Part shown: one piece after another, positions 1 through 42,609 of the stretch
How the letters are laid out: each line of letters starts with the position of its first letter
How positions within the stretch are numbered: position 1 is the first letter of the stretch
Source of the DNA: Halichondria panicea
Taxonomy: Eukaryota; Porifera; Demospongiae; Suberitida; Halichondriidae
Length of the DNA stretch: 64,000 bases
NCBI RefSeq assembly: GCF_963675165.1
Contig: NC_087389.1
Span: 6,000,621-6,064,620, forward strand
Reading direction: 5' to 3'
Program-made: the position numbers and the translations under genes
Notes under the pieces: generated by a model
The model's database searches: none
What the model saw: only the letters and a program-made list of their open reading frames with translations
Told to the model about the DNA's origin: nothing

Positions 1-925
1 ATATCGGGTGGCAGCATGTCGAGAATCTCTTGATTCCTCTTGATAAGAGTATCCAAGCTCTTGAGCTGATCTAAGAATGTGCCCACAAAGATCATCTTTG
101 GCTTCTTGTCTTGTGAGGTATGGGACTCAATGGATCGAATGAGACTCTGAAGTGTCTCCCCGAGGGTCATGTGAGATGCATGAGGACTACCAACAAGCTG
201 CCCATCCTTGTAGTACTCGTCAGAAGGGAAACTGGAGAGTTCGTCAATCAAACGCAGGACTATCAACGCCACCGAAATGTGCTTGATGAAGAGAGGGCTG
301 ATGTCGTGGAATTGGGGTTGTCCACCGCAGTCGGTAACGTACACCCAGTTGGAATCAAACAGTTCTCCTTCTTGCTGGTCACTGCTCGACAGTTGGTCAG
401 TTCCCTGTGTGGCTGGCTTCAGCTCTTCTGCCACACCACTCACTACACTTGCTATCACTTTATTGATAGCTCTGTCCAACCTTCTTGCAGAGCCAGAAAG
501 TGCGACGGAATCGTTGCTCGATGGAGTCGATTTGAAACCAGAAATTGGCTCATCAGAAACAGAAATTAGCTCGGTTGTGGTCATCTTCTTCAAGCTCTCG
601 GCAACCCTTAATGCCGAGGATGGATCGGTGCTTTCTTTTGGTAGTTTGGCGATGATTTGAGCTAGTAGCTTACGCAGCTTTGGCTGAGACATCTCTTCCC
701 AGCCTCTTCCAGTTGACCTGAATTTTGCATTGGACACGGGTCGAATGCGTACTGGCTTTTCCATACAAGAAGTGCTGTCTCGCTGTAGTGGAGGGGGCTT
801 GTCAGTTAGCAGGTGCTTGAGGTTGGTCTTCCCTGTTCCCGCCGGTCCAAACACGAGCATGTTGACAATGTTGACCAAGACGTGTCCGTGCTTCATCCCC
901 TCATCAAACAATCGCTTCGCTGATT
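1..925 (-). CDS. GTPase exon of copy A (Roc-like P-loop domain), partial
   Basis: The reverse strand is open without a stop for the whole stretch. It begins after a TTTAG acceptor with residues ESAKRLFDEGMKHG, then a hydrophobic beta strand and the Walker A loop GPAGTGKT. About 150 residues later comes TDCGGQPQFHD, which matches the G3 element (DxxGQ) of Roc/Ras-like GTPases, then FVGTFLDQ in the place of the G4 base-recognition strand. The segment between Walker A and G3 is long, Ser/Thr/Glu-rich and poorly conserved with the A' copy, while the motifs and their flanks are conserved. The exon continues past the left edge, where the COR winged-helix region should follow. The G4 motif departs from the usual NKxD, so nucleotide specificity cannot be assumed. 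Confidence 0.82.
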
Positions 926-3900
926 CTAAACAGGATGTGTGAATGTAACTAACTATATGCAATACTTCACAGCTAGGTGACAAGATGAACTACCGTAGAA
1001 ACTGGATTATTAGCGCATGCGCTCATGCATGGGGTCAATAGCAGAGCTCTATATGCTTATATTCGAGAATGCGCCTATAATGCAGTCATATTCTAGCCCC
1101 ACCCAGTAACCGGATGTCTCTGGGACGAGTGATGTTTCAAGGCAAGCTAACTCGATCTATATCACAATTATATGTTACAGTTCATTTTACACTTCATTTT
1201 AAATTCATATCGCTTATAAAAATATTCATATTGACCAAGAACTTGAAACAAAAGGACGTCTCACATTCTCTCAGCATGATCAGACATGGTAACAGCATGC
1301 CCAGAGAGTCCTTCCAGATGGATATCACCAGCTATAATTATAGCTACCATGCACTGTACAAGCTAGCTCATAGGAATCAATTCAAAATGTTCACCAAATA
1401 ATTATTATTATCTTTCGCATGCCATGTAAACGTAGCGGGTAATTTTCATAAGGTAAAAATTAGTTCAACTTGAACACGGTGATGTTCGTGAGTCAAAATG
1501 TTCATTGCCTGCACTGCATTGCATGCGTTCCAGTAAACCACGCCTAGGTCAGCTTGCCCACGAAAATAATAACGAATATCTTACCCCAAAAAAATTATCC
1601 GCTATACGGTAGTCTGTCAATTGGCTTGGCATAATCAACCCTACAGGTTAGGTAGTCCATTGGTTTGGATATAGCCTCAACAAAACAAGTTATTAGTGTT
1701 TCAGATTTTGATGTTAAAGTCTCCCACACGCCTCAGGGTTAATTGTATTGACATTCTGCGCAACCAAGACAGTGTGAAAACACAATACAATAACAGTACT
1801 TGTGGTCACACATACATGTTGTATTGTAAACAAAATTACATCAAATCATACGTAACTTGGTGCATGTACAATAGAGTACATTGAGTGTGGAAGGCAACTA
1901 GGTAGCTCTAGTTATACAATAGAAAAGCATTTAATGGAAGGACCGGCATCGATCTGCTACAAACAATGGATACAGCAGCTGTACGTACATAAACCTTTAA
2001 AGCTTGCTAAGTGAGTGACCCACCAATGACAGGGAATGTGGCTGATCATTACAGGAATGTGCTATGAATGAATTGACATGATGATGTCACTAAGTACACA
2101 GTACAACGTTACCAACCCAATCAGTCAATCACAGTGACTGTACATGTATGTGCGCATATATTGATGCAATGTCTGATAAACAGTATCCATAATTAATTAT
2201 AACACATGTACCACAGTGTGTGGAATATAGTCAAAGGAACAATGCTCTAGCTTGATCAAACCAGGACCACATGGAAGGGAGTAAGCAACTAATACACACC
2301 ATATAAATACATGTCAGGTATGTCAAACACACTTGTAGTGATGAAATTTGTGTGTGTTGACCAAGGCTAGGTGGGCTAATCATAGATTAAGTCTACGCAT
2401 GTGCTTGTGCAATTAATCCATGATTTGAGTGGTTGCATACAAACCTTATTAAGGTAATGAAAGAGGTGAAGCCAACAGTTTAATAAGAGCGGGATTACCA
2501 ACATTGAAACATTGAGACAGCTCGCAACAGCTGTACGTACACACTACATGTATACAGTAGAGGACAAATTAAAGTTTATGATGCGTTTGTTAACCCGAGG
2601 CACTCCACGGGCTATAGTAGTCAATCTGTGTGTCTGTGGATATGAGTCTATACTCACCCGGATGTGATAGCACTGTATTGGTACCATGGATAGCCTCAAC
2701 ACAACAAGGTTTTATAATATTAAAGGTTAAAGTTCTGTTGTCGAGCAAAAGCTAAAAAGCATGAACTGCACTGCAAGATTTACACGTGACTTTGACTCGA
2801 GGCTGTAAACGTATAGACCTCAAACTAACGCCGAGGGTTTGCACTTCAGTTTGATTCTGTTGCACAAACAAAATAATTGTTTTTGTGCATATGCGCTCAA
2901 GCTTGCAATATATAGGTACTGAGAGCAAAAACATTTTAACTTTCCTCGTAAATAATTGGAAAATGCAGAGCGGGATTACAAACATTGTACAATGGATTTT
3001 GTACGTACAGTCTACTAATAACTATAGTCACGGTAGAGGACAAATTAACGTTTCTGTTCTGTTTGCATATAATTATAGTCTCTGCGTTTGTGTACGTTGA
3101 TTCTGTTGCACAAGCCAGTGGGAAATGCAGTAGGAAAGCGAGCGGAAACATTTGAACGCCCAAGCACAGGAAGCCACACCCACTTTCCTGCGCATGACAG
3201 GTGTGGTCACTAAACGTACAAAAGCTCAATCTGAATACCTAGTACTGCTCACTGCTTATGAATAGCTCCACTTTAGCTTATACTATAAGGCCTAGAGGGG
3301 TGCTGATCTCATAGCTGGATAAGCAAAACAATTGTTTTTGTGCATGTGCAATCAAGCTTGCAATATCAAACCACTAATCATATTCATAGTAATTAAGGCT
3401 GATAATGTAAACACAGTATTACTAAACCATGCACAGGTGGTACAGTCAAATTCCTCAGTCACCAAATATTCCAGTTATATGGTACTACCGTATAGCGCGA
3501 AATTTTCGAGGGGCTTAATTTTCGCGGATTTCGTGGGTTGGAATTCTACACGAAAATTAAGTCCACGAAAAGTGTTCGTTAATAAGAATTACCTGCTATC
3601 ATGCAAATATTTAAAGGCGTGGCTTCCGGTAAGCAGTCATTCCGCGAACATTGTGCAACGAAATGGCTTTTAGAGGCCAATCCACGAAATATAAGTGCCT
3701 CGAAAATTTCGCGCTATACGGTATATGCGAACGAAACAGAAACTTTAATTTGGCAAGTTGCTACAGGTACGAGTGATTGCAACTATGAGCATCAACACTC
3801 ACTGTACTACAAAGTTCCTTGCTCCCCTCACCTTCCTTTCTCTGCCTCTCTGGCCTTCCTCGTATCTCAGTAATGTCATTCTCCTCGTCATGTATCTTCC

Positions 3901-6900
3901 CCTCCCAGTAGTGTATGTCTGAGACACACTCCTTGATCTCCTCCTCCACCACCTCCAGCTCTCTCTGGTCCTGGTCAGTGATGTCACCAGACAGTCTCTG
4001 TTGGAGGGCAGCTCTTCTCTGGGGGAGTAAAGAATATATATACGACTGAATGAACATTCCACCAAATAGAACATGCAGCTGATACAAATCACTACTGCAC
4101 GTTATAAGGTTAACAAATTGCGTACAATCCACATAACAAAATATAAAGGTCAGCAACCACCAACCTATTCAATCAGTAAAAGTGGACTTATAAAACATAC
4201 ACAAAGGTAGACAAAAAGCAACCATTCATCATACAATGGACAGTACATGTACACACATTGTCGTTCTGCTAGACTACGTCTACCACTCTTACCACGAGAG
4301 TAGTAAGTGCAACTGTCAACACTCACCGTCTCATGACTCTTCAGTTCACTCTCTTTCTTAGCCTTCATCTGGACAAGGTGAACAAGACAAGAGTGATTAG
4401 ACTGTGTGTTTGTGGTCACACATTATGAGTTGTCTATAGGTGTAGCTACGAGGGTCAGGTAAGGATATGAGACTATTACAAACTGAATGCACATGAGGTG
4501 TACGGTATGTTTGCCAACATTGTTTGACTCACTTTCTATTGTTCCAGATATTCAGTAACCATAGAAATGTATGGAGAGAAAAGAATATAATCACAAACCT
4601 GTACACTATGATATCAATAATTTATATTACACGGCATGTACTCACACGTACAACTCAAACATTACTGACACAAGTACAGTCACAAGTCAGTGCAGTGTCC
4701 CGCTCACCTTCTGTTTAGTCCAATGAGACACCAGCGTAAGACATACATGGAAACAGAGAGAGGGGGATGATGGTAGGAGCAGTGAGTGCATTCATACATG
4801 TCTGTATACTGTAACTTACATTCTGTTGTTCCAGTAATCATTAGCAGTAGTCACATTAACAAGCACGGACATGTAGAGAAATGAACATGTTCAAATACAC
4901 GAATGCATTCACACATGTATACATCAATTATTGCAAGTACACGTCTGTACAGCATGAAACTATCAAGAGCAGTACCAATCTAAACTAGAGCACTAAAGTG
5001 CAAACCCTCGGCTGGTGACATGATTATAAAGAAACCAGAAATATAATGCAGTGCATTGCCATAATATAGTGATGTTGTTATCATGTATGACTTGCACAGC
5101 AACTCAGGAGCAATAAAACTAAACCAGACTGGAGGCATGCTGAAACATTTGAGAACAGGTAGTGGTACTATAGATATATACACTGTGGATTAGGATCAGA
5201 GCAAAGAAGCCTGGAGTCTCAGAGAAGTATGGCTCAGGTCCTGCATCGAGTAGGATCCCAGTCAGCTAAAGCAGTATAGGAGCTATAATTCAAGCTTTCT
5301 ACTTTAGTGACCCTGTTCCATTGTTCTTGGTACAGGATCACTTCAGTTATAAGTCAAGTTCTGTTCAAGCTACATTTTGCTCGCTTTTATTAGACAACGA
5401 AGCTTTTAACACAGAAAGGTACCACTATCAAAAGTACTAACTTGTTGTATGGAGGCTACCCATGCTGTATAAACGCAGTGCTAGAACATCCAAGTAAGCA
5501 GACCCAGTCACAAAGCTTGTTCAAGCTTCTTAGCTTTTGCTCGACAAAGAAGCATTAACATCAAAAACTGCCACTATTTAAACCAAGATATTGTTGTGTG
5601 AAGGCTATCCATGCTGTAAACGCAGTGCTGTGGTACCCAGGTGAGTAGATATACCTGTGACAAACAGACAAACCAACATACTACTATACCCGTGGCCGCC
5701 CGCGCGCGCCTCGGGTAATAAAGCCACACAATTTCTGCCTTCATGCAGTAGACTAATTACATGTACACAAGTAAGTCTAGTTTGCCATTAAATATACAAT
5801 GAACAAACTACACAGCTATAGCGCACACTGACAATAATAAACTCACGTGCTGTTGTTGAGTAACAGTCCACAGAGGGTACATGTGCATGAGGAGAGGGAT
5901 ATGAACACACTGGTAGTAACTCAGTACACACACTGGCTAGTACACACACAGGTACTTAGTACTAGCAATGGCAGATAATGGAAGGGTCAGTGGGTGGGTC
6001 AGTGAAAGGGATGGTAAACGGTACAACAAGCATCTTACATGTACAACTTTGATACGTATGATTTTGTTTGTCGTACAATACAACACGTGCACTCCATGAG
6101 ACACACACACAATCACAACATACCTCAATGTAACGCTGAGACACACATCAAATGGTACATGTGAGGGAGAGATTTAATCTTAACACACATACAATACATC
6201 AGATCAGTTGAACGCTGGTGTGTATGGGACCATAGATAGAGTAGAAGAGGGATTGGAAACGGAAGTACCCTCGAAGTACCATCCGTGTATCTCCGCGGTT
6301 TTAATCGAGGCTTACTTTTTAACACGAGGGCTAAACATGAATAATTCATGAGAATTGTTTTGCTCTCTGTAAGAAGTCCACGAGCAGTTCTGCTGCTAAA
6401 CATCAACTTTCTCTAATACTTGAGGCCATTTGGGACACAGGACACTATTTAGTTACAAAGCCTTAGCTATATCAAAGGTACTATAGGAACACAAGCATGA
6501 AAAAGTGCTCTGTGTACCTTCACGACAATCGAGATTATATTTTCTTTGTTTCCAATTGATACCTACTATTAGGGGGCATGTGATTCAGTAATGGGGGTAG
6601 CTCTGAGATGTATGCTTTGGACACAATAAGTTTCCCGGGCTTTTGCGGGAGTTATGGAAGAGATACACGGATGGTCCCAAAGCCACTACGTAGACTTCAT
6701 TGTAAAACATCACGTGAATCACTTCCGTTTCCAATCCCTCTTCTACTCTATCTATGATGGGACTGACTACACATAGCAACAAGTGGAATACATCTAGACC
6801 TAAGAAGCTCACCTTCTACAGTAGTCCAAATCAGTGTGAGGTCCAACATAGGAATGAGTGTGTGCATGGGAAGAGACAAACACGATAATGTACCAACTTA

Positions 6901-9900
6901 GATGCATATTCTATGAATCAACGAAAGTATTAAAAGTACAACCTAATAAGTTTTGTGGGCCTCGGCTAATACCAAGTTGGCAATATGCAAATTAAGAGAT
7001 AAAGACATTTTACAATTAGTGTAGGAGTTCCTATAGTAACCATTAAAATAAGTGTACACGTGCAAACACAACTTACACGCTGTTGATCCAGAGAGGGAGA
7101 ATCCACAGGGCAAACACGTGGGAAGATAGTAAATGAATGATTACGAGGTTGAATGTGATCATACTAAATATTTCCCTATATAACACTATGGCACTGCACA
7201 CACACAAGAGTAATAATGGGGAAGTAGAAACATCACAGAATATGCAACAGACACTAAATACTCTGACAACACACACCAACTTACAGTCTGTTGTTTCAGA
7301 TGGTCAGTCAAAGGTGAGGTGGAGATGCATGAAATGGAAGGAAGAGAACATTAGTGCAGTGATACAGTACACTGGTGATTGCATGACACAGGGGAGGGGA
7401 AACAATTGTGGACAGCCAAACATGCAGACTCAAACACTTGACCGAATAGCCGCGGTTGACGCTTTGAAGCGTCAATACCTGAATAGCTGGTAGCCGCGGT
7501 TGACGCTTTGAAGCGTCAACCGCACATTACTCTACCATAGATAGTAGAGGGACTATACTATCTCTACTATCTATGACTCTACTCTTAATTAATTTGTGGT
7601 GAGCTACAACCTTCCAGAGCTCCACAGCTTTGCAAGGCTTCTCTCGAAGGTCAACAGAAGCCGTACTGAGTCCGATCACCATAGGTTAGCAATCAAAAAT
7701 TTGCTGAAATTTTCATGTGAAATTTGTATTTCAATATCAATCTCAAAGTGAACATACACTATAATAAATACAATTACAATTAATTCTATAGTACAACAAT
7801 GACTAAGAGGCCTCTGCACACAGGGGATGAGGTACTCCTAGGTATCCTGGATAGTAGTCACAGTGAGTAGACCTTCTCAGACCCATAAGATGGTGGTGGT
7901 TCCATGGCAGATAGCAGTGACGATAGTTTCACAGACCTGCATGAGGAAGAAGGAGTATTGCCAACCAAGCAGATCACCTCTAGAATCAATGGTTCTTACA
8001 CACAAGTAGCACAGAACCTGACAAACACCAGCCAACAAGCCAGCCATAAAGAATTGAATTTTAAATGTAACCTTTGGGGTGGTGCCTAAAAGATCAAAAG
8101 ATTATCATGCAATCAATACACACACTAAATTGAATAATAACATTCAGCCACATAATTATAATTGAATTGCTATAACAGACACCACACTAAAAATTGGGTA
8201 GATACATGTAACACAGCACTAACTCACAAGCCAACAAACCTAAAGAAGTATACTGAGAACAGCCCTACACAAAGTACAGTACATCTCATACAAGGGTGAC
8301 AAAAAATAATTATGAATCATGCAACCTTAGACATAATTATGTATAGGCTCCCACAAGCAAACTTACATGCAATGGCACTCATAGGCACATATAAAGCAAT
8401 TGTGATCCTACAACAAACTGGGAGTTCATAAAAGATTCAACTTTGGGCACAGAAGAATTACAATGCATATCACAGGCAAACACACAAGCCAACAAGCCAA
8501 CTAATAACAAATTATGACCTAATCCTAGCTGGGGAGCATAACACAACCAACAAGCCTATTATGTTGGGAATAAAATGTCCTTACACAAGTAAACAGTACA
8601 CTCATAAGCCCAACAAGCCTTTGCTTTCCCCTGAAAAGGTCAGAACATTATTATGCAATCAACCACCATACATGTACACAGTGAGCCTAATGAGTAGTGA
8701 GCCTAATTGAGTAGTAGCCTAATTGAATTGTAACCTTGGAAGCAAGCAGAAACTTCACACAAGCCTAGGCATAAGAATTAACTTTGGCAGCACTGATAAT
8801 ATGTAAATTGTTAGCACATATAAAGTCTCATGCCACAGGAACACACAGGGGGCACACACCGCACGGGCGGGCGGGCACGCACACACACACATGCACGCAC
8901 ACACGCGGGCATCAATAGTGAATACACATTCAGCTATTAACAGAATACATTGTGGATGAGACCAACAGATAGCTAAGCATAACACCTTTACATTGCAACA
9001 CTGCTGAACTGCTGAGCGTACATATATAGGCTTCTGTATTTTAAACTCGGGCTTCAACACACTGCTGGAGCAAGTATACTTTACAAGCTACGTAGGTAAG
9101 CGTATAGTATTATCAGCTATATAGCTAATAATCATACGCACACAAAGCTTACCTCTAAAGTAATCTCTCGCTCTGTCCTTGGCTGGTTGACTCTTCGACT
9201 GTTCAGATAGAACTACAAGGTAGCTTGAAGAGAACTGTTACTGTTACTAAGGGGTGCATCTTTCTTTGCCACACTGAAACAAATAAATTGAATATCAAAC
9301 ACTGTACACTACACTCTAAAAACAGGCTCTAAACTAACTCAGCTTCTACACAAGTATACTTTACACACTCATAAGCTATCTAGGCAAGTGCATAAGCATA
9401 TTAAATCAGCTCAGAGGCTTCTGAAGGCTTATACTAGCTACATAATGCTTGCTATATACGCACACAAAGCTTACCTCTGAAGTGATCCCTTGCTCTGGCC
9501 CTTGGCTGGTTGACTGTTTCTTTGGAAACCAGGAGATCCTGACACAGTAACTACTGTAGACTACTTTGCTAAGAAGTTGAATAAAGAAAACTGTCACTGT
9601 TTCCAAGTTATGCATCTTTCTTTGCTAGAGGCGAATGCTGAAAAAGAGAAAATAATTTGAATATCAAACGTTGTAGACTACACTCTAAAAACAGGCTCTA
9701 AACTCACGAAGCTACTCTTCCAGTATATTTCACACACTCAGAGGCTATCTAGGTAGGTGGACAAGCATATTACATCAGCTCAAAAGGCTTATAAAGGCTG
9801 AACTAGGAAAATGATGATCGCTATACACACACAGAGCTTACTTGTGAAATGATCCTTCGCTGGGGCCTTGGCTGGTATACTCCTCCGTTCAAAACTTAGA

Positions 9901-10551
9901 GATCCTGGCAGAGTAGCTATTCTAGACTAGTTTGCAACAAAGTTGCCTGCAGAAAACTGCTACTGCTTCTTAGATACGCATCTTTCTTTGCTAGGAGCTG
10001 ATAATGAAAGTAATTTAAAATTAATTAGATTTTGGTTCCGCGGTGGGCGGTACTACATATGAAATCATAACCGCGGCTATTCGGTTAACCATGCATATAC
10101 TTTCAGGTACTATACTATACAAGTAGATCTACTGGTCTCAATTAAGGAATAGTATCACATTCAGTTATCCGTATGTGCTCTTTTTTACACTGTCTACCTC
10201 CTAACAACAAGTGCTCAGAGCACAAGCATGTCAGCTTGGTAGAATGTGATTGCACACAACGTACCTCAATCTTTTCCTGTTATCCATTCAAAGAGAGTGG
10301 TACATGTGGAGAGAACAACAACAAGAGATAAACACCTCACACTGACAGGGTAGAGTGTAGGCACTATACTGTGATGAATGAATGATGCCAAGTGTGTTTA
10401 TGGGTGGTCAACAAGTACATCTAGGCACTAGGAGAATGCACTGATCATTGAGTATCTATCTATCATGTGTATATCATACCCTTTCCCTATCAGTGAGTCC
10501 CTCCATCAACTGTGGGGAACTAGCAGCATTCAGTGTTGTAGATTCAGCCAT
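1..10551 (-). CDS. Copy A: coiled-coil / Roc GTPase (COR, death-domain) gene, 3' end outside window
   Basis: Spliced gene read right to left. Exons: 10480-10551 (start ATG at 10549-10551), 10336-10341, 10265-10276, 7285-7287, 7077-7079, 6813-6815, 6124-6135, 5847-5849, 4820-4822, 4708-4710, 4533-4535, 4327-4368, 3832-4018 and 1-925, which runs off the window. All exons up to 4327 have lengths divisible by three. The coiled-coil exon ends in phase 1 and the GTPase exon begins in the matching phase, so the frame is continuous. No stop is seen in any exon, so this copy may be functional, unlike copy A'. COR and death domains are expected to the left of position 1 by analogy with A' (inference). 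Two introns carry transposon insertions absent from A' (6231-6756, 7441-10085). In animals, Roc-COR proteins with death domains are intracellular signalling GTPases; an innate-immune or cell-death role is inference only. Confidence 0.75.
926..3831 (-). other. Long intron of copy A
   Basis: No coding exon recognised. It aligns almost throughout with 24721-27403 in A'. It contains a degenerate CCGTATAGCG-type repeat (about 1430-1612), a dispersed repeat beginning TTAACCCGAGGCACTCC (2590-2755; related inverted copy at 5390-5712) and one A-specific MITE (3488-3721). Confidence 0.6.
3488..3721. mobile_element. 234-bp MITE with TA target duplication
   Basis: Terminal inverted repeats begin CCGTATAGCGCGAAATTTTC and are mirrored at 3701-3721. 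TA flanks both ends (3486-3487 and 3722-3723). The paralogue A' has the clean empty site GGTACTATATGCG near 27290, so this is a direct insertion/empty-site pair. TA duplication fits the Tc1/mariner superfamily (family knowledge); no transposase is encoded. Confidence 0.88.
3832..4018 (-). CDS. Main coiled-coil exon, copy A
   Basis: Acceptor CCCCAG and donor GTGAGG bound 187 nt coding a charged helix. It starts RRAALQQRLSGDITDQDQ, then heptad-like acidic/basic residues, and contains DIHYWEGKIHDEE. It ends in phase 1, matching the GTPase exon at 925. The A' homologue (27404-27605) is 15 nt longer, in frame. It is read as the N-terminal oligomerisation helix of the GTPase protein. The exact family of the coiled coil is not recognised. 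Confidence 0.75.
4327..10341 (-). CDS. Train of micro-exons, copy A
   Basis: In transcription order: 10336-10341 (CE), 10265-10276 (EKIE), 7285-7287 (T), 7077-7079 (R), 6813-6815 (K), 6124-6135 (RYIE), 5847-5849 (H), 4820-4822 (N), 4708-4710 (K), 4533-4535 (K), 4327-4368 (14 residues starting MKAKKESEL). Each lies between an AG, usually CAACAG preceded by a long AG-free pyrimidine-rich stretch, and a GT donor, usually GTAAGT or GTGAGT; the 6-nt exon has the weak donor GTGTTT. All are in phase 0. The same order, spacing and splice signals occur in A'. The joined residues form a charged helix. Without transcript evidence, skipping of individual exons cannot be excluded. Confidence 0.72.
4981..5712. 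repeat. Copy-A-specific insertion with tandem ~150-bp units
   Basis: A' lacks this segment (its sequence runs directly through near 28568). It contains two diverged tandem units (about 5390-5540 and 5541-5700) sharing the string GCTTTTGCTCGACAA or its relatives and ATGCTGTAAACGCAGTGCT-like words. The right end, CGTGGCCGCCCGCGCGCGCC, is unusually CpG-rich for this AT-rich window. An inverted relative lies at 2590-2755 and 26390-26550. Boundaries are approximate. Confidence 0.6.
6231..6756. mobile_element. 526-bp MITE with 7-bp target duplication
   Basis: Terminal inverted repeats of 36 bp run from CATAGATAGAGTAGAAGAGG through GGATTGGAAACGGAAGT, mirrored at 6721-6756. The element is flanked by direct repeats ATGGGAC (6224-6230 and 6757-6763). 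The A' copy has the single-copy empty site TATGGGACTGAC near 29055. It sits in an intron of the copy A gene. It shares the inner terminal motif GGGATTGGAAACG with elements at about 33112-33607 and 38101-38868. Confidence 0.9.
7441..10085. mobile_element. 2.6-kb element with 17-bp perfect inverted termini
   Basis: It begins ACCGAATAGCCGCGGTT and ends with the exact reverse complement. A' reads straight through at this point (CACTTGATTAACC near 29750), so the segment is an insertion in copy A, inside the intron between the 12-nt and first 3-nt exons. No clear target duplication is visible. The left end has two copies of the perfect 20-bp palindrome TTGACGCTTTGAAGCGTCAA (partly degraded in the first). 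The interior holds an 8-kb-region track rich in the word CAAGCC and three tandem units at 9130-10010. No transposase is recognised, so it is probably non-autonomous. Confidence 0.8.
9130..10010. repeat. Three tandem ~330-360 bp repeats inside the 7441-10085 element
   Basis: Units start near 9140, 9467 and 9830. Each carries AAGCTTACCTCTRAAGTRAT-like sequence, then CCTTGGCTGGTTGACT, then GCATCTTTCTTTGC. On the minus strand each presents a short open stretch (residues like NQPRARARDH) followed by GTAAGC, so tandemly duplicated exons of the element's own gene are possible but unproven. Confidence 0.6.
10480..10551 (-). CDS. First coding exon, copy A
   Basis: ATG at 10549-10551 opens 24 codons beginning MAESTTLNAASSPQLM and ending at donor GTATGA. 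The A' counterpart (31698-31772) is 25 codons with the same start. I chose this Met because frame and phase join directly to the 6-nt exon and because both copies conserve it. An upstream in-frame extension exists but reaches no better start. Confidence 0.7.
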
Positions 10552-12267: not shown

Positions 12268-13257
12268 ATGATGGCGTCTTGTGAGCCTAACAGAACAAGT
12301 GCATACAGTGAGGATCTGAGATGGAGGATGGTGTGGCAAAGGGAAGCTTTGGGCCTTTTAAACAGAGAAGTTGCTAGAAACTTGTGTGTGGATACATCAA
12401 CTGTTTCCCGAACAATGGTTCTGTTTCATGCTACTGGTTCAGTAACAAAGCGCACCTATCCCAAAGACAGAGCATCAAGAAAACTCACAATGCCTTGCCA
12501 GCTACTCATATTGAATTCTGTGATTCAAAGTCTAGGCATTTTTCTGCGTGAAATCCAGAAAAAGATTGAAGAGTTGCTCTTGGTGAACATTAGCATCACC
12601 ACTATTTGTAAATTTATTTACCAAAGTGGTTTCACTCGTCAAAGACTCCGTAATGTAGCACTGCAACAAGATGCATTCTTAAGAGAGCAGTACAAATGTG
12701 ATGTATCAGTATATACAGCTGATATGTTTGTATTTGTTGATGAGACTGGGGCCGATAGACGTAACACAATGAGAAAGTATGGATACAGTTTGCGAGGACG
12801 ACCAGCAGTGAACCATTCTTTGCTGATTAGAGGAGAGAGGATATCGGCTATTGCGTGCATTTCAGTTCAAGGAATATTAGACGTCAAAACTGTCAAAGGT
12901 ACCAGTAATGGTGACACGTTTTATGACTTTGTACAGGAACATTTAATTCCTCACCTGATGCCTTTCAATGGGTTCAATCCTCATTCTGTTGTAGTGCTAG
13001 ATAACTGCTCCATACACCATATAGCAGAAGTGAAGACAATGTTGGAAGAAATTGGAGTTCTTGTTCACTTCCTTCCACCATATTCACCTGACTTCAACCC
13101 CATTGAGGAAGCATTTTCGAAGGTGAAGTCTGGCCTTAAAAGCCAGCTTGACAGTAGTAGTGATGTAGAAACACTCTTACTTACTAGCTTCACAAGTATT
13201 AGCCCAGAAGATTGTCGTGGCTGGATTGAACATCCAGGTATATACAACTTCAATTGA
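12268..13257 (+). CDS. DDE transposase, IS630/Tc1-mariner superfamily
   Basis: A 329-residue intact ORF. Residues 10-65 form a helix-turn-helix DNA-binding region (SEDLRWRMVWQREAL, then NREVARNLCVDTSTVSR). The catalytic core shows FVDETGADRR (first Asp, about residue 154), VVLDNCSIHH (second Asp, about 246) and the PPYSPDFNPIEEAFSKVK block with the terminal acidic residue (about 281). This is the DDE_3-type arrangement. Length is normal for the family and there is no frameshift, so the enzyme could be active. It would cut and join DNA at the element's inverted ends in the nucleus. It is followed 240 bp later by a convergent accessory ORF. Confidence 0.93.
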   Translation: MMASCEPNRTSAYSEDLRWRMVWQREALGLLNREVARNLCVDTSTVSRTMVLFHATGSVTKRTYPKDRASRKLTMPCQLLILNSVIQSLGIFLREIQKKIEELLLVNISITTICKFIYQSGFTRQRLRNVALQQDAFLREQYKCDVSVYTADMFVFVDETGADRRNTMRKYGYSLRGRPAVNHSLLIRGERISAIACISVQGILDVKTVKGTSNGDTFYDFVQEHLIPHLMPFNGFNPHSVVVLDNCSIHHIAEVKTMLEEIGVLVHFLPPYSPDFNPIEEAFSKVKSGLKSQLDSSSDVETLLLTSFTSISPEDCRGWIEHPGIYNFN

Positions 13258-20412: not shown

Positions 20413-23400
20413 CTGCATGAAGAAATAAAGACATCACTAAAACGACAATTTACAATTTTCGTGATAGTCTTATTCAGCACTAAAAATGACACACAGGTGA
20501 ATAAAAAAAATGCACACTGAAAATAGTAACCTACAATTTTCTTGACAGCTTATATCATTCACTAAAAATGGCGAATAAAAAAAATGCACAAACAGTTACC
20601 TGTGATACTGTCAGCCAAATTGATGAGCTTCACTGTGGGCTTTTTGAGACCATCTGACAGGAGACTCCATGTTACATGTTGTGTACTCAGGAGCTTGGCC
20701 AACATTTCACGCAAGCACGATACATTATTTCCACGATGCTCGCTATTGATGTTGGTGAGAACAGGATGAGTTAGACCTAGAGCCAATCCCAGATTGAACC
20801 AGTAAGGGCTGGCACTTTCATGTAGTTTCTCGTAAACATGTTGTAGATCGTTGATTGTCAAAGCCTGTACAAAAACAACAATCAACAGGGTTTCATTTGG
20901 TGGGGATTGCCCCCTTGGAAATACCTTCTAGAGGAAACTCAATGGGAATACAATTGAGGGGTTCTGGTGAACAATATTCTTAACAGGGCAGATATAGTAA
21001 TGAATTTCTGGGGTCACGAACCCTCCAGATATATACATGTCATCAACACCCTAATATCATGCACGTGCACCATTTGCTCCCCTTACCAAAATGTCAGGAG
21101 GATAAGTAGATACAAGATTTAGAGTACTGCCTACCTTGTGTACGTTCAGCAGGTGAGGAAATTTCTCCGCGATTAGAACGATGTCACTCTCAGGGATTTC
21201 TTGATTGAGTTGTTGGTCTCTCACTCCAGTCTTCTTACACACATCTTCCATTACTGTAACAGAGGACAATTCACCTCAAGAAAAATATTGGGCCAAAAAG
21301 TAAAAGTATTCTTTATAAGCGACATAAAAAACTTAATTACAGCAACCATTGGAGATATTTTAGGACACAATAAACTGTTAAGTCTGAGTTGGTGCTACAA
21401 TTACATCAACTACACAGTATCAACTACACAGGCACTGAATTATACACGAGGATTAACATGATCAGGCACAGGACACATTAATGATCATAACTTGTCGACC
21501 AAACGGCACTTTCTTACTGGTATGTTGATGTGGATCACTCGTTGTATTGACCACATGTTCCATTGCAGGAGACAAGTTGTCTGAGGAGGGAAATTTTATA
21601 ATAAGAAAGTGAGTACAAAACAAAGCTTACCAGAAGTAATGCACTGATCATGATCATGTACTTCCGTCTTCAAGCACACATCTTCCATTACAGAATTACC
21701 TGAGGAAAAGCAGACACAGCTCATGTAGTACGTCTGTCAATTAACATGCTCACTCAAACAAGGCTGTTGATCACTCATTCCAGATCCAGTGCTACTAACA
21801 ACATTGGCCAGAGTCCCACATTGATTGACTGAAAACAACAAGAATTACTATAAATTGACATCATGCGCATTAAACCCTGAACCCTCATACATATACAGGT
21901 ATATTATACACGTACGGTGTATGTGCTTACTAGAGTATTGCTGCTGATCACTCTTTCTCTCAGTCTTCCTACCAGTACCTCCCGTAGCAGACGATGGTTT
22001 TCCTAATAGAAGAATTTGAGGAGAAACTATATAATTGGTAAAATAATACTTATCCACCGGAAACTTCCTTACTGGTATATTGATCACTCATTCTACACAC
22101 AGTTTCCATTACAGGGGACGATGGACCTGAGGGGGATAATACAATGATACGAAAATACTTTGTTATACTAATATAGTACACAAATATAAAAGCTGCAAAT
22201 ATTTACGTATAGTGCTACATAACTACCGGAGTATTGCAGCTGATGTCTCTTTCTTTCAGTGTTCACCTCTGAGGAGGCTTCACCTATAACAAAGGAAACA
22301 TGATAGTTAGGTAATTAACATATTCAGTATTAAGTAACCTAATAAGTGATAGTAAAGCAATGTATGTCATGTACTTACCAGATTGTTGCTGCTCATCACT
22401 CAATGTCATCTTTGTAGACATGTCTCCCGTAACAGAGGATAACGCACCTAATTGAGGGGGAGAGATAATAAACTACATGCATAATTAGAGACAATACATG
22501 AAACTATAAATACACTGTAATGCATGTACTGCTATCACAATGCCCTACACAGAATGTATACCATAGTTGCTATTCATCTACCCCCTCCCCGGAAGTTACA
22601 AGGAAAGGAAATATAAAGTAATAACTCACCTTCCGCAGGAATAATTGCCGTACCTAACCAAACAGTATGACTCGTCTTGAGATCCCCATCTAGATCAAAA
22701 TCTTCAGAACAGCACCACAGTTTTGTCGATAAGTGGATATCAGCAAAATGGCGTTTGCCTTGTTGTGTTGCTCCTTCGTGAGGGCAGAAGATGCTAATGA
22801 CTGGCTTGTCGTTGTTGTAGTGAAGTGCATCAGAAGCAGCATCTACACCTTCAAGGACACTGGCTCTAACTAGAGGACACACGGTCAGAAGCACATGTGG
22901 TCGGGCTTTGACATGGACCTCCATATAAGAGAAGGAATCAATCAGTGTAACGCTACCAGGAGAATCGGGTAACCGAAACTTGACACAGTTCCTAGCTAAA
23001 AGAACCGGCTTTCCAGAAGGAAGACACACTATCCACCCACACTTCTTCATGAGGAACACCACTAGACAACAGAAGACCCCACATCGAATACAGCCACTGA
23101 CAAATCGGATGAGAAGAGGATCAGCTGAGGAAGTGAATACACGATGGTCCTCTAGCTCAGAGGGTGGAACAGATCTGAGGAGACTGGGCATGAGAAACTC
23201 CACTTGAGAGAAAGAGCAATCAACTCGACCAAGTAGTGGGATGGTGAGAGGGGCTATTATCAGAAGCTCCATCATGATTGCTATCATATCAGCAGGTGTG
23301 AAAAGGCCGTCTTCGTAATGCTTCTGGAACTCTTCCGATTCGAGCATATCAATAGTAAAAATACCTTGATCTCTGAACTTGAGCTATTTTGCAGCCTTGG

Positions 23401-26400
23401 CAGAAGGACGTTTTCTTTGATCCCTCAGGGAGACAGCATGTTGTGTTAACTCACTAACTTTGTCTAGTGGGACTTGAGGATCCACAAACACAGTGTGGGG
23501 CAGGATGTGTGGGTAGTAGTGGACAATGCACATGTCATTGAAGTAGTCGAGAGCAGCATCCAATGCAGATGGATGGAATCCAAGCTGTTGAGCCAAAGCG
23601 ATACACTCACTCTTACTAAGGATACCTCTTTTCATGATCTTGCAAAGCTTTTGTAGAGCTAACTCGAGGATGAACCACCACAGGGGAACTTTGAGGTCGA
23701 ATGTAGGCGAATTTTCCACAGCTTTCCGAATTTTTTTGGCAACCTCTTGTGCATTTTCATCACGACTGCAAGCATTGACGGTGAATATCACCTGTTTCAA
23801 TGGCAGATTGCTGTAGATGACTTCTTCTTTCAGTTCAGGAGGCAAAGCATCAAGCAGGGCTTGGTTTTTCTTGTCGATAACTTTTTGATCTTTGATTTTA
23901 TCGGAGAAAGTGCCCACAAAGATGGGGCGTGGCGTTTTCCCATCCCTCTTGCAGGAGAGAAAGGATCGCAGTAAACTCATATTGGTTTCCAGATAGGAAA
24001 GGTGAGATGGAGATGAGGGACCGACTGGCTTTCCATCCTTGTACAAGTCGTCGTGGGGATAATCTGCAAAATCATCAGTGAGCCTGGAAACAAACAGCCC
24101 TGCTGAAGCATGTCGAATGAAGAGAGGGGCCACATCGTGAAACTGAGGCTGTCCTCCATTGTCGGTCACACGCATCGTTTTCGTACCAAACAGTTCTTTG
24201 CCTTCAGTTGAGGAGATTGAGGCTTCTTGTTGTGACGGTGTTGACACCATAGCTTCAACGACTAACGCGACAACATCTTCGATTGCTTGCTGCACAGGAG
24301 AAACACTCTCTTGAGAAGGTGGGATTGAAGTAGCTTCGGTTGCTGCACTGGTACTGGCTTCAGTGGACAATTCCTTGAGCCTGGTCTGAAGGTCACTAGG
24401 TAGCTTGTCACGAGAGCTCTGGGGTAGATGCTGAATGGCCTTTGCCAACATGTTGACCAAATCCTCTTCACTTACTTCCTCCCATTTGTTGTCAGAACCC
24501 TGGAAACGACCCTGAAAAAGGAGATTGGTGACTGGTCGAACGTGGGCTATTCTATCTCGACAAGGAGTACTGTTTCGTACTTCTGAAGGTGGATTGCCAA
24601 GCAAGAGATTCTTTGTGGCTGATTTACCGCTACCAGCTGCACCCATGAGTAGGAGGTTGATGTTGCGAAGAATAACGTATCCATCCTTCATGGCCTCATC
24701 AAAGAGATGCTGCGCAGACTCTGTGATTAAAATTGCACAACTAGCTATAATTATATTGAATATTTACGCCAGACAAAAAATTTGATTACTTTTTTAGAAC
24801 CGATGCAGGTAGGAAAAATATGCGCTCATGCATGGGGTCAATAGCAGATGCTTATATTCGAGAATGCGCCTATAATGCAGTCATATTCTAGCCCCACCCA
24901 GTAACCGGATGTCTCTGTGACGAGTGATGTTTCGAGGCAAGCTAACTCGATCTATATCATAATTATGTTACAGTTCATTTTACAGTTCATTTTAAATTCA
25001 TAATTATTATAATTTATTATAAAAATATTCATAAATATTGAGCAAGAACTTGGAACAAAAAGACGTCTCACATTCTCTCAGCATGATCAGACAAGATAAC
25101 GGCATGCCCAGAGAGTCCTTCCAGATGGATATCATCAACTATAATTATAGCTACCATGCACTGTACAAGCTAGCTCATAGGAATCAATTCAAAATGTTCA
25201 CCAAATAATATATTATCTTTCGCATGCCATGTAAACGTAGCGGGTAATTTTTGTGGGGTAAAAATTCGTTCCACTCGAACACGGTGATGTTCGTGAGTCA
25301 AAATGTTCATTGCCTGCACTGCATTGCATGCGTTCCAGTAAACCACGCCTAGGTCAGCTTGCCCATAAAAATAATTTACCCCACCAAAATTATCCGCTAT
25401 ACGGTAGTCTGTCAATTGGCTTGGCATAATCAACCCTACAGGTTAGGTAGTCCATTGGTTTGGATATAGCCTAAACAAAACAAGTTATTAGTTTTTCAGA
25501 TTTTGATGTTAAAGTCTCCCACACGCCTCAGGGTTAATTGTATTGACATTCTGCGCAACCAAGACAGTGTGAAAACACAATACAATAACAGTACTTGTGA
25601 TCACACATACATGTTGTATTGTAAACAAAATTACATCAAATCATACGTAACTTGGTGCATGTACAATAGAGTACATTGAGTGTGGAAGGCAACTATAGGT
25701 AGCTCTAGTTATACAATAGAAAAGCATTTAATGGAAGGACCGGCATCGATCTGCTACAAACAATGGATACAGCAGCTATACGTACATAAACCTTTAAAGC
25801 TTGCTAAGTGAGTGACCCACCAATGACAGGGAATGTGGCTGATCATTACAGGAATGTGCTATGAATGAATTAACATGATGATGTCACTAAGTACACAGTA
25901 CAACGTTACCAACCCAATCACTCAATCACAGTGACTGTACATGTATGTGCGCATTATATTGATGCAATGTCTGATAAACAGTATCCATAATTAATTATAA
26001 CACATGTACCACAGTGTGTGGAATATAGTCAAAGGAACAATGCTCTAGCTTGATCAAACCAGGACCACATGGAAGGGAGTAAGCAACTAATACACACCAT
26101 ATAAATACATGTCAGGTATGTCAAACACACTTGTAGTAATGTAATTTGTGTGTGTTGACCAAGGCTAGGCGGGCTAATCATAGATTAAGTCTACGCATGT
26201 GCTTGTGCAATTAATCCATGATTTGAGTGGTTGCATACAAACCTTATTAAGGTAATGAAAGAGGTGAAGCCAACAGTTTAATAAGAGCGGGATTACCAAC
26301 ATTGAAACATTGAGACAGCTCGCAACAGCTGTACGTACACACTACATGTATACAGTAGAGGACAAATTAAAGTTTATGATGCGTTTGTTAACCCGAGGCA

Positions 26401-29400
26401 CTCCACGGGCTATAGTAGTCAATCTGTGTGTCTGTGGATATGAGTCTATACTCACCCGGATGTGATAGCACTGTATTGGTACCATGGATAGCCTCAACAC
26501 AACAAGGTTTTATTAAAGGTTAAAGCTTTGTTGTCGAGCAAAAGCTAAAAAGCATGAACTGCACTGCAAGTTGGCCTAGATGTACACGTGACTTTGACTC
26601 GAGGCTGTAAACGTATAGACCTCAAACTAACGCCGAGGGTTTGCACTTCAGTTTGATTCTGTTGCACAAACAAAATAATTGTTTTTGTGCATGTGCGCTC
26701 AAGCTTGCAATATATAGGTACTGAGAGCAAAAACATTTTAACTTTCCTCGTAAATAATTGGAAAATGCAGAGCGGGATTACAAACATTGTACAATGGATT
26801 TTGTACGTACAGTCTACTAATAACTATAGTCACGGTAGAGGACAAATTAACATTTCTGTTCTGTTTGCATATAATTATAGTCTCTGCATTTGTGCTGATT
26901 CTGTTGCACAAGCCAGTGGGAAATGCAGTAGGAGGTACTGAGAGCGAGCGGAAAACATTTGAACGCCCAAGCACAGGAAGCCACACCCACTTTCCTGCGC
27001 ATGACAGGTGTGGTCACTAAACGTACAAAAGCTCAATCTGAATACCTAGTGCTGCTCACTGCTTATGAATAGCTCCACTTTAGCTTATACTATAAGGCCT
27101 AGAGGGGTGCTGATCTCATAGCTGGATAAGCAAAACAATTGTTTTTGTGCATGTGCAATCAAGCTTGCAATATCAAACCACTAATCATATTCATAGTAAT
27201 TAAGGCTGATAATGTAAACACAGTAATCACTAAACCATGCACAGGTGGTACAGTCAAATTCCTCAGTCACCAAATATTCCAGTTATATGGTACTATATGC
27301 GAACGTAACAGAAACTTTAATTTGGCAAGTTGCTACAGGTACGAGTGATTGCAACTATGAGCATCAACACTCACTGTACTATAAAGTTCCTTGCTCCCCT
27401 CACCTTCCTTTCTCAGTCTCTCCACTGCTTCTCCTCGTATCTCAGCAATCCCCTTCTCACTGTTATGTATCCTCCTCTCACACCATTGTATCTCTGAGAC
27501 ACACTTTTTGATCTTCCCCTCCACCTCCTCCAGCTCTCCCTGCAGTAGTCTCCGGTCCTGGTCAGTGATGTCACCAGACAGTCTCTGTTGGAGGGCAGCT
27601 CTTCTCTGGGGGAGTAAAGAATATATATACGACTGAATGAACATTCCACCAAATAGAACATGCAGCTGATACAAATCACTACTGCACGTTATAAGGTTAA
27701 CAAATTGCGTACAATCCACATAACAAAATATAAAGGTCAGCAACCACCAACCAGTAAAAGTGGACTTATAAAACATACACAAAGGTAGACAAAAAGCAAC
27801 CATTCATTATACAATGAACAGTACATGTACACACATTGTCGTTCTGCTAGACTACGTGTACCACTCTTACCACGAGAGTAGTAAGTGCAACTGTCAACAC
27901 TCACCGTCTCGTGACTCTTCAGTTCACTCTCACACCTAGCCTTCGTCTGGACAAGGTGAACAAGACAAGAGTGGGTTAGACTGTGTGTTTGTGGTCACAC
28001 ATTATGAGTTGTCTATAGGTGTAGCTACGAGGGTCAGGTAAGGATATGAGACTATTACAAACTGAATGCACATGAGGTGTACGGTATGTTTGCTAACATT
28101 GTTTGACTCACTTCCTATTGTTCGAGATATTCAGTAACCATGGAAATGTAGGGAGAGAAAAGAATATAATCACAAACCTGTACACTATGATGTCAATAAT
28201 TTATATTACACGGCATGTTCTCATACGTACAACTCAAACATTACTGACACAAGTACAGTCACAAGTCAGTGCAGTGTCCCGCTCACCTTCTGTTTAGTCC
28301 AATGAGACACCAGCGTAAGACACACATGGAAACAGAGAGAGGGGGATGATGGTAGGAGCAGTAAGTGCATTCATACATGTCTGTATACTGTAACTTACAT
28401 CCTGTTGTTCCAGTAATCATTAGCAGTAGTCACATTAACAAGCAGTAGGACACGGACATGTAGAGAAATGAACATGTTCAAATACAGGAATGCATTCACA
28501 CATGTATACATCAATTATTGCAAGTACACGTCTGTACAGCATGAAACTATCAAGAGCAGTACCAATCCTAAATAAACCCACACAATTTCTGCCTTCATGC
28601 AGTAGTACATGTACACAAGTCAGTCTAGTTTGCCATTAAATATATAATGCTCAGCTAGCGCACACTGACAATAATAAACTCACGTTCTGTTGTTGAGTAA
28701 CAGTCCACAGAGGGTACATGTGAGGAGAGAGGGATATGAACACACTGGTAGTAACTCAGTAGTCACTGGCTAGTACAGACACAGGTACTTAGTACTAGCA
28801 ATGGCAGATAATGGAAGGGTCAGTGGGTGGGTCAGTGGAAGGGACGGTAAACGGTACAACAAGCATCTTACATTTACAACTTTGATACATATGATTTTGT
28901 TTGTCGTACAATACAACACAAGCACTCCATGAGACACACACACAATCACAACATACCTCAATATTACTCTGAGACACATCAAATGGTACATGTGAGGGAG
29001 AGATTTAATCTTAACACACATACAAGACATCAGATCAGTTGAACGCTGGTGTGTATGGGACTGACTACACATAGCAACAAGTGGAATACATCTAGACCTA
29101 AGAAGCTCACCTCCTACAGTAGTCCAAATCAGTGTGAGGTCCAACATAGGAATGAGTGTGTGCATGGGAAGAGATAAACACGATAATGTACCAACTTGAG
29201 ATGCATATTCTATGAACCAACAAAAGTATTAAAAGTACAACCTAATAAGTTTTGTGGGCCTCGGCTAATACCAAGTTGGCAATATGCAAATTAAGAGATA
29301 AAGACATTTTACGATTTCCTACAATTAGTGTAGGAGTTCCTATAGTAACCATTAAAATAAGTGTACACGTGCAAACACAACTAACCCACTGTTGATCCAG

Positions 29401-35950: not shown

Positions 35951-36160
35951 CATGGGGAGAATACACGGATAACTGCAAACACGCTATAGTGGAAATTATA
36001 ATAATACGGACACTTTAACTAATGGAAAGTGAACTGTTTATTGTAGTGTGTCTGCTAATTTCATGTGCTTCTATTGAGTTGGGACTTCCCCTGATTATAA
36101 TGCCTGATTATAAGAGGTGTCTTTATTTCAAGGGTGGTCAGTGTAGCCACACCCCCTCAC

Positions 36161-36256
36161 CTGTAATGGCGTGCTGTATCTTCCTCTTCCTCTCTAGGAT
36201 GCTCCTCTCCTGGTCCTCCACTGACTTGTGATAGAGCTACTCACCACACAGCCTCA
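36161..36256 (-). CDS. Possible small exon(s), unknown protein (block B)
   Basis: On the minus strand a stretch EDQERSILERKRKIQHAIT ends at a GTGAGG donor. The homologous stretch is at 56680-56776 in B'. It looks like part of a charged helix, but neither start nor gene is identified. Low support. Confidence 0.3.
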
Positions 36257-36460
36257 TCTGACAACACACCTGAAACAAGGGACAACAATTTGTTATAATT
36301 ATGTTGGAGAACAATAAATACTGTAATAGTGCTGCTCACATGCATCACTTACAGGAAGATAGACTCTTTAAGCCTGCATTCAGTATTGTATTCATTCTTG
36401 CTTTTCTCTTTCGTTTCTGATCCACGTGGCACCAGCAAAACTCAAAAGTCAAAAGTAGTG

Positions 36461-36545
36461 AGGGAGGGGGAGGGGCTGGTGTTTAATTCATTTCCCTTTA
36501 GCCTAAAAAGGGAAATGAATAAAACACCAGCCCCGCCCCCTCCCA
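36461..36545. repeat. Perfect hairpin, ~36-bp arms
   Basis: GGGGGAGGGGCTGGTGTTTA ... TTTCCCTTTAGCCTAAAAAGGGAAA ... ACACCAGCCCCGCCCCCTCC. The B' counterpart (56973-57043) has lost part of one arm. A foldback element relic or a MITE remnant. Confidence 0.75.
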
Positions 36546-38100
36546 CTAATTAATTGTCTCTCAAAAGTCAATGACAATAATTATAAGAGAGTTGCAACAT
36601 AGATACTATAAATTACTGTGGTAGCAAGCTCTGCTAATGCACACTTGAAACAACAATGATGGTCATTCATTACCCACTCCCTGAGTTTTTGCATGCAGCA
36701 AAATTAACATGTGTATAAAACTTTATGTTATGTAGCTTTAATACTTTGACATCTCAACCGAGGCATCAGCACCTTTTTTTTCATTTTTAATAACTTGTAT
36801 TTGGGCTTTGTTCAACAAAGAAAGGCGTTGTTTGTTTTCTAAAGTAAGGGAATTCCCCAAACTGCACGGATAGGTGGGGCTCATCCATAATTATGCATTC
36901 CGTATTTCCAAGGGCGTATACGCCCTTGGTATTTCTTAGCCCTTATTCTGGCTTATTTATTCCTGTAGAGTGCTGATTAATCACCCACACCATCTTTTCT
37001 CTTTTCACAACAACATTTGTAGGTCACTGTCACCAGGCAAAAGCAAAGAACTGATCAGCTCTAAATGTATGCAGTCTAAATAATATTTATAGACTGAGTC
37101 AAAGGTCTCTATGGGGTTTTGAGACCTGAAGGCCCGAGGCTGTAGCATCTCGAGCGTAGCGAGGGTGCTACTAAGGGCCTGAGGGTCTCAAAACTCCATA
37201 GTGACCGTTGACGAGGCCTATAACTGGTTTAGAATAGTGCTAAGCAAGCTAGGCTATATTAACACAAAGAAGACTCTGAAACCAAGAGTTTCTACAAGCC
37301 TCAAGCAACGTTAAAGCTTTGCTCTGGCTAGTCTACATAAAAAAACTCACATTGATGAAGGCAGTTTCTGTTTCTTGAGAATCACGCATTGCAAATAAAA
37401 AGTTGCTATTGTCATAGTAGTTAGCTCTGCACTAGAGCACTAGCTATTGTAGCTGCAAGAGAGAGATAAAAGCTGCAAAGCGGCACTGCAGAATGCAAAA
37501 CTTAAAAAAAAATTAATTTTTAATGATGCACTGTATCATCGTTACTATGACTTCAACATAAACTGTGTGATGTTGCCATGTTCCATACAAGTTAATCTTG
37601 ACATCATCTTGCCTGTAGGCATAATCAGTATAATAGACCTACTTAGAAGACCTCAGGTCCATAAGTGAAATAATGGACCTCTCAGTGACCTATCAGATTG
37701 CAGTATTACTACAAGCATTTTCTAAGTCCAGATAATTAGCAATGTCAGTGAGTGCATATAATTACAGGCTACTGCATAAATCTATTATATTATATTATAA
37801 TTTATATATACAAGCTATAAAGTGGATGTGCATATGAGCATGACCTCCTATAAACTACTGCATAATTATAGTCTTCTTAAGTTACAGCTCTCCCTCCCCA
37901 TGTAGGGCAAGCGTCCGATAGCTCAGAGCAAGGTTGTCTTTATCTCACTCCTAGTGGTGGACATGCTCAACACCATCCTGCAAGAGACCATCACACTCTC
38001 CAAGGGTGATCGAGTAGCAAGTGCCCGAGCTGCCATTATTGTCTTTATTCTCTGTATGATTATATTATTTGGCCCGTTAACGATTGGCCATTATGTCTAT

Positions 38101-38868: not shown

Positions 38869-39010
38869 TCTATCTCTGCATAACAAGAAAAAATCTAGCC
38901 TCGAATCCACGCCGATTAAAATACGGCCTGCAGGGGTGTTAGTGCACATGCGCTGCACAATTACCCAGAATCTGGGTAATCGTGCATGCCAGTAAAACTT
39001 TTAGTAAATG

Positions 39011-42604: not shown

Positions 42605-42609
42605 ATAAT

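Follow-up and report, generated by a model that had tools for sequence, protein, structure and literature searches.

Paralogous genes with candidate single-codon exons

We analysed a 64,000-nucleotide stretch of the genome of the sponge Halichondria panicea (the window; C13:6000621-6064620 in a 131-Mb assembly of 39 contigs), in which two related genes, copies A and B, lie on the minus strand and appear to encode much of one helix in exons of a single codon. An earlier note on this DNA had described the tiny exons of copy A and overlooked the main point, which is that most such codons are hypervariable among dozens of paralogues, with near-constant surroundings. In transcript order copy A reads exon 1, EKIE, T, R, K, RYIE, H, N, K, K, a 42-nt exon, a coiled-coil exon and a GTPase exon, the small units being named after their predicted residues. 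Every exon junction as far as the beginning of the coiled-coil exon is in phase 0, and the joined reading is open. The features of copy A, all on the minus strand, are:

10480..10551, exon 1 (MAESTTLNAASSPQLMEGLTDRER), with its ATG at 10551; the 3' end is the start of the variable helix (LTxxER)
10265..10276, 12-nt exon EKIE (xxIE), codons 1 and 2 hypervariable
7285..7287, 3-nt exon T (ACT), hypervariable
7077..7079, 3-nt exon R (CGT), hypervariable
6813..6815, 3-nt exon K1 (AAG), GAG or AAG across 24 tabulated copies
6124..6135, 12-nt exon RYIE, codons 1 and 2 hypervariable
5847..5849, 3-nt exon H (CAC), hypervariable
4820..4822, 3-nt exon N (AAT), hypervariable
4708..4710, 3-nt exon K2 (AAG), invariant, AAG at 39/39 listed sites
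4533..4535, 3-nt exon K3 (AAA), only AAA, GAA, AGA or AAC at 39/39 listed sites
4327..4368, 42-nt exon MKAKKESELKSHET
3832..4018, coiled-coil exon RRAALQQRLSGD..., first half constant, second helix variable
3..929, start of the GTPase exon (GPAGTGKTN, DCGGQPQF), running past the left end of the window into locus L026

All seven AG-NNN-GT single-codon units lie where the earlier note had placed them, on the minus strand, in phase 0 and in the order it gave, and the 12-nt exons (EKIE at 10276-10265, RYIE at 6135-6124) and the 42-nt exon (4368-4327) were likewise located. Its word "consecutive" holds less well: seven 3-nt exons are present, but in transcript order the third is followed by a 12-nt exon. 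A 6-nt exon that it proposed at 10341-10336 found no support and was omitted from the model rather than excluded, as its donor is poor (GTGTTT) and its inclusion would upset the helix repeat; this candidate reads TGTGAG in 20 of 23 matched copies and also in copy A, which that pattern missed. Nor could we bear out a special role for the acceptor CAACAG, which only four of the seven copy A units carry (T, R, H and N), the other three having CTGTAG, AAACAG and CAATAG. Most introns between units are about 100-600 bases long, with lengths up to 3 kb in copy A. The motif CAACAGNNNGTRAGT has 7 matches in the window versus 0.03 expected, and the looser YAGNNNGTRAG has 19 versus 9.6 expected, 13 of the 19 being copy A or B units; taken alone, the loose motif is weak evidence for exons. 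The possibility that the 12-3-3-3 exon set had been duplicated was rejected, as a blastn self-comparison of the window (matches of at least 90 bases) found no DNA similarity between the two sets, which resemble each other just in their short acceptors.

Copy B lies about 20-24 kb to the right of copy A, with the following minus-strand features:

31698..31772, exon 1
29926..29937, 12-nt exon EDIE
29594..29596, 3-nt exon Y (TAT)
29386..29388, 3-nt exon W (TGG), donor GTTAGT
29111..29113, 3-nt exon E (GAG)
28957..28968, 12-nt exon SNIE
28684..28686, 3-nt exon N (AAC)
28399..28401, 3-nt exon D (GAT)
28287..28289, 3-nt exon K (AAG)
28112..28114, 3-nt exon E (GAA)
27905..27946, 42-nt exon TKARCESELKSHET
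27404..27605, coiled-coil exon
23384..24721, Roc-like GTPase frame, closing at an in-frame stop where three close relatives have W
22574..23383, COR-like region past the stop, labelled by eye, no Pfam match
20598..20861, Death-like stretch 3' of copy B, which may be part of B or of the next gene

The two copies align at 92-96% identity in five blocks and at 84% in the exon 1 block. Seven of eight small exons nevertheless differ from A to B: T to Y, R to W, K to E, RYIE to SNIE, H to N, N to D and the last K to E, with one K unchanged. Three introns of copy A are longer than those of copy B (extra stretches at 7441-10085, 4984-5717 and 6230-6757), and one of the extra stretches contains a diverged direct repeat (9134-9628 and 9456-9994). 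The units persist although introns grew to 3 kb. Copy A is not alone in its long K-RYIE intron, which many other copies share. The in-frame stop of copy B (23384-23386, minus strand) separates the GTPase from the COR-like part at a codon that is W in L002, L008 and L011, and copy B may be truncated or non-functional.

A family clustered on two contigs

Two DNA searches of the assembly gave at least 42 matches each, all on contigs C10 and C13 (40 candidates scored). The T unit was found at no fewer than 46 sites (two mismatches allowed), 43 of them without a flank mismatch, in clusters on C10 and C13. The R unit with a GT donor was found at 45 sites (two mismatches allowed), including a lone site on C17, besides five unrelated matches on C12. 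Pattern searches found the H and N units at 39 sites each (two mismatches allowed) and K3 and K2 at 39 sites each (three mismatches allowed). Reversed-pattern controls returned 0-2 matches in each of these six unit searches, and a shorter initial pattern had returned 142 matches versus 18 for its reversed control. The C17 site (L028:1967-1990), counted among the 45, has matching flanks and no further unit within 4 kb; it is perhaps a stray fragment of the module.

A complete unit set was present in 20 of 24 tabulated copies, each of which has an open reading to the end of the 42-nt exon. In 13 of these 20 the reading was extended into the coiled-coil exon, in some of them partially; in one tabulation several readings of this exon are out of frame owing to a loose boundary. 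The other four copies (L005, L014, L021 and L022) are truncated, interrupted or diverged members that might act as sequence donors. Their N entries in the 24-copy table are mis-hits on the T unit, and the xxIE2 entry of L021 is a mis-hit too; these affect the 24-copy diversity of N and xxIE2 only and leave the T figures, the pileup described below and the 20 complete copies untouched.

Hypervariable codons in near-constant surroundings

Across the family, the T unit encodes 14 different amino acids (46 sites) and the R, H and N units 11 each (45, 39 and 39 sites), with no stop among the 169 codons. Diversity at the three positions of the T codon was 0.67, 0.70 and 0.00 in 24 copies, versus 0.008 over 60 flanking sites. 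We also made a pileup on copy B of 15 copies from C13, built without the unit positions and with its columns labelled afterwards. Of its 5570 columns, 43 showed a diversity of at least 0.55. Micro-exons account for 16 of these (out of 45 columns) and introns for 6 (out of 4989; Fisher p 6e-30), another 20 belong to exon 1, the coiled-coil exon or the 42-nt exon, and the last one to the upstream flank.

Codon differences at T, R, H, N and K3 (27-32 copies) comprised 1774 non-silent and 6 silent ones, counted over pairs of copies that are not independent of each other. All 27 four-fold degenerate T-unit codons end in T. Since silent positions are intron-like and replacement positions are near saturation, selection appears to act at the protein level. 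The 20 complete copies differ pairwise at 8.8 of ten variable codons on average, and at 6 at the least. Some units are restricted: K2 is AAG at 39/39 sites, K3 is AAA, GAA, AGA or AAC (K, E, R or N) at 39/39, and K1 is E or K across the 24 tabulated copies. As K2 stays invariant among hypervariable 3-nt exons, the variability of a codon does not stem from the size of its exon.

Seven introns, with those lengthened by insertions left out of the comparison, diverge by 0.5-4% among the copies of each contig and by 1-10% between contigs. The T-R intron diverges by 0.012 between C10 and C13 and by 0.010 and 0.012 within the contigs, and the codons adjoining it are unrelated. The GT donor is kept at every unit found, and the AG acceptor everywhere except at the xxIE1 unit of L022 (20-24 copies per unit). 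The earlier note had proposed recognition of the units through flanking intron signals; these near-invariant splice sites are consistent with such recognition, which may thus operate here. Most units could still be found in three divergent copies, compared with B by scoring unaligned bases as different. In L023, identity is 0.84-0.86 up to 20 bases from a unit and 0.55-0.71 at distances of more than 60; the corresponding drop is smaller in L025 (0.82-0.94 to 0.70-0.80) and uneven in the much unaligned L024 (0.59-0.64 to 0.35-0.57). L023 shows clear constraint on the splice flanks, L025 a weaker one, and the picture for L024 is unclear.

These data are best explained if the units are coding exons under amino-acid selection. 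The decisive evidence for predicting exons is comparative, namely 46 T sites with near-constant flanks around a hypervariable codon, and this pattern of variation across copies strongly supports the claim of the earlier note that the single-codon exons are probably real.

A predicted helical hairpin

The joined reading is ...L T xx ER xx IE xx E xx IE xx K xx KA xx E SELK..., continuing after SELK as RRAALQQRLSGDITDQDRRQLQGELEEVEGKIKKCVSEIQ xx E xx IH xx EN x IAEIRG, where named residues are constant or nearly so, x residues are variable and exceptions occur in single copies. It follows a 4 + 3 residue helix repeat, one face of which is near-constant. Within the first helix the two 12-nt exons each encode xxIE and the seven 3-nt exons one residue each, of which four are hypervariable (T, R, H and N), K3 is limited (K/E/R/N), K1 is E or K and K2 is constant. 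A constant middle is followed by a second variable helix, and this second variable stretch leads into the GTPase. The N-terminal module is thus predicted to form an antiparallel helical hairpin.

Combinations and copying between genes

No association was found between T, R, H and N codons in any of the six pairs (p 0.19-0.52), and every pair shows all four combinations of some allele quartet. The T-R-H-N sets were all different in the 34 copies that have all four units (46 copies have T). For ten codons in 20 copies, 2 of 45 pairs gave p<0.05, as chance predicts.

Three linkages favour copying of codons between genes. The R-unit codon TGG has the donor GTTAGT in 5/5 cases, four on C10 and one on C13, and this donor accompanies none of the other 40 listed codons. 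At the H unit, amino acid and third base agree in 34/37 (p 3e-4). On C10, as read from the list, AGA at K3 goes with GTGAGTT in 7/7 and AAA with GTGAGTC in 7/7, GAA occurring with either.

The attached GTPase, COR-like and Death-like parts

The motifs GxAGxGK and DxGGQPQF are invariant in 13/13 aligned GTPase sequences, and GTPase and COR-like part mostly share one open frame of about 700-860 aa. Over these frames, Pfam and NCBIfam gave nothing above cut-off; apart from Roc, considered below, sub-threshold Pfam matches of the GTPase frames were to AIG1, G-alpha and others, and a sequence search of the PDB gave weak small-GTPase matches. Neither B (E up to 1) nor L017 (E up to 10) matched the COR domain in Pfam. 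The genome holds at least 91 matches to the GTPase family (from the best 95 of 224 candidates scored; some genes are in two pieces).

On C8, two relatives score above cut-off for the Pfam Death domain, in frame with the GTPase. A Death-like stretch lies 3' of both A and B, with 98% identity between the two. It is 43% identical to a stretch on C14 that scores 15.3 bits against the Death cut-off of 22.6, and a second Death-like stretch on C14, at 21.6 bits, also falls under that cut-off. Both were tested among several Death-like frames on the reverse strand of L035 (C14), 5' of a GTPase relative. Against the PDB, the Death-like stretch matched designed proteins only (best E 1.3e-5, no matched stretch passing alone), which we took as chance.

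Two GTPase types, about 40% identical, stand behind one type of N-terminal module: type one in B, L002, L008 and L011, type two in A and the remaining loci with a GTPase match. Since A and B share 92-96% identity across most blocks of the module and about 40% in the GTPase, module and body have separate histories. The GTPase relatives on C6 and C14 have no match to [CT]AGNNNGT[AG]AG[TC] in 7 kb upstream. One C6 coiled-coil frame seemed similar on inspection by eye, yet no alignment was obtained.

A candidate recognition module and its alternatives

Single-codon units that are hypervariable and look like coding exons thus occur in a multigene family whose copies have frame and splice sites in common. 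We consider it probable that they belong to the N-terminal recognition module, a hairpin with single-codon exons, of a large, clustered family of immune-type GTPase receptors, spliced stepwise and diversified by selection and exchange. Three bases cannot accommodate the donor and acceptor machineries simultaneously, and stepwise intron definition is therefore the likely route. Each intron would be removed separately, the upstream one first, so that a codon joins the preceding exon before its own donor is used. Diversifying selection would alter the residues, and the introns between units would be where recombination or conversion copies codon variants from gene to gene and reassorts their combinations. 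The module might then bind foreign or self ligands, with the GTPase relaying the signal.

The layout suggests that evolution can alter or swap a recognition surface residue by residue. In its fullest form, which we judge somewhat less likely than not, the proposal is one of single-residue exon shuffling, in which introns serve as space for crossover or conversion and residues are swapped independently among dozens of paralogues. Such swaps would take place in the germline and perhaps also somatically, and would create a combinatorial repertoire of receptors in what is, on the sponge assignment, an early-branching animal.

Several observations weigh against the receptor proposal or parts of it. 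Later units were not found within the fetched stretch in 4 of 24 copies (L005, L014, L021 and L022), and with the stop in copy B these gaps mean that not every copy need be functional. Flank conservation at T, R, H and N sites was partly selected for by the search pattern; the pileup is less exposed to that bias, yet similarity also served to find its copies. Variable columns can adjoin outside exons too, because at a diversity of 0.5 the pileup has adjacent pairs of them in introns (two) and in the 5' flank (one). Inclusion of the 3-nt exons is read from genomic DNA alone, and recognition and immunity are suggested by how the family behaves. The match to Pfam Roc is weak (E 0.029-0.097 in three proteins, below cut-off), the Death-like stretch in the window has no Pfam match, and the COR and Death labels draw on resemblance or intermediates. 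Lack of association between codons fits exchange and also repeated mutation, so that for exchange only the evidence of copying speaks.

Alternative splicing is the strongest of the other explanations, although we regard it as unlikely. Frame-neutral skipping of 3-nt exons would yield many isoforms differing by single residues, as reported for the NACHT-ANK genes of the truffle Tuber melanosporum (PMC3689799, PMC4986451, PMC9815663, PMC10197012), and every unit here is a multiple of three in phase 0. Loss of one residue would, however, shift the helix register that the sequence keeps (the xxIExxE repeat), and near-invariant donors and acceptors at every unit suit constitutive use.

Targeted mutation of the triplets by a diversity-generating or deaminase-like process, with selection secondary, would account for the sharp change in diversity from triplet to flank and for an intron divergence of about 1% beside the T and R codons. 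We think it very improbable, as change does not span the triplet (the 27 four-fold degenerate T codons all keep a final T), K2 remains AAG at all its sites, and a given amino acid mostly uses one codon at a given site. K3 is likewise limited to K, E, R and N and retains a third-base A in 37/39 codons, contrary to A-targeted mutagenesis; on this count the adenine-directed mutagenesis that characterises diversity-generating retroelements was rejected. That the units are conserved intronic motifs or decoy sites rather than exons is scarcely credible, even with YAGNNNGTRAG merely twofold above chance and exons known from the genome sequence only, as coding is the one explanation found for the ratio of 1774 to 6 beside near-constant flanks, and the units fit one helix repeat.

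Relation to known systems

The closest parallel to the proposed receptor module is the truffle NACHT-ANK (nank) family, in which codon-sized exons are alternatively spliced (PMC3689799, PMC4986451, PMC9815663, PMC10197012). One of these sources refers to dozens of 3-bp mini-exons, the primary report that they cite being Iotti et al. 2012, and the earlier note's description of the series as exceptional needs this qualifier. Truffle nank genes share with the present family many codon-sized exons, of which several per gene are found here at sequence level, and an expanded family of immune-type NTPase receptors in which these exons fall in the presumed recognition part. They differ in belonging to a fungus and in their NACHT NTPase, C-terminal ankyrin part and reported alternative splicing, whereas the genes described here have a Roc-like GTPase, an N-terminal helical hairpin and codons hypervariable between paralogues. 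NACHT had no match in the GTPase frames of B, L002 and L017, and ankyrin none in the scanned frames, the protein being assembled only as far as the COR-like part.

ROCO (Roc-COR, AP-GTPase) proteins differ from the present family in that Pfam Roc is below cut-off here, COR is not detected and an N-terminal variable helix replaces leucine-rich repeats. They resemble it in the P-loop and DxGGQ motifs, the long frame of GTPase and COR-like part and the Death-domain relatives (PMC8195603 for AP-GTPase/COR). According to that eLife survey, TRADD-N and Death-like proteins are greatly expanded in the sponge Amphimedon, which is compatible with the setting proposed here; in the part available, the present family is not named.

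Very small, phase-compatible exons in fast-evolving genes are also known from the micro-exon genes of schistosomes (PMC4350168). There, small exons make up most of the coding region and the products occur in secretions or glands; here, just a short helix of a large GTPase protein is in tiny exons, with the GTPase and COR-like part in one frame. The Podospora nwd (WD-repeat) genes and other fungal NLR repeats (PMC4986451) offer a likeness in their few hypervariable positions, diversifying selection, homogenised background and exchange between genes, with the difference that whole repeats are the unit exchanged, as opposed to single residues split by introns. Exons of one codon have been reported in animals for Ncam and Drosophila TnT (PMC8042270) and Drosophila hth (PMC7392893), singly in those cases and seven per gene in dozens of genes here, where several of them are hypervariable. 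Among the matches listed in the literature searched, which lay mostly outside subscription papers, no such family was recognised in a sponge or other animal.

If the receptor interpretation is right, codon-sized exons would mark the variable part of immune-type genes in a second case, beside truffles and in another class of receptor, here with direct evidence that the codons themselves vary. The family would then permit a test of why such demanding splicing evolves, single-residue exchange between genes being the candidate reason, and would probe how the spliceosome handles runs of 3-nt exons. The variable residues would be lost on any gene predictor or read mapper that imposes a minimum exon length, and the diversity of the family could escape current annotation.

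Other features of the window

A second pair of duplicated regions lies on the plus strand at 35951-46252 and 56479-62838, 74-96% identical in blocks, and contains a hydrophobic-looking 339-aa frame at 58886-59905. A 329-aa frame at 12268-13257 has by eye the look of a DDE transposase. A tandem array with a unit of about 44 bases occupies 51301-51704.

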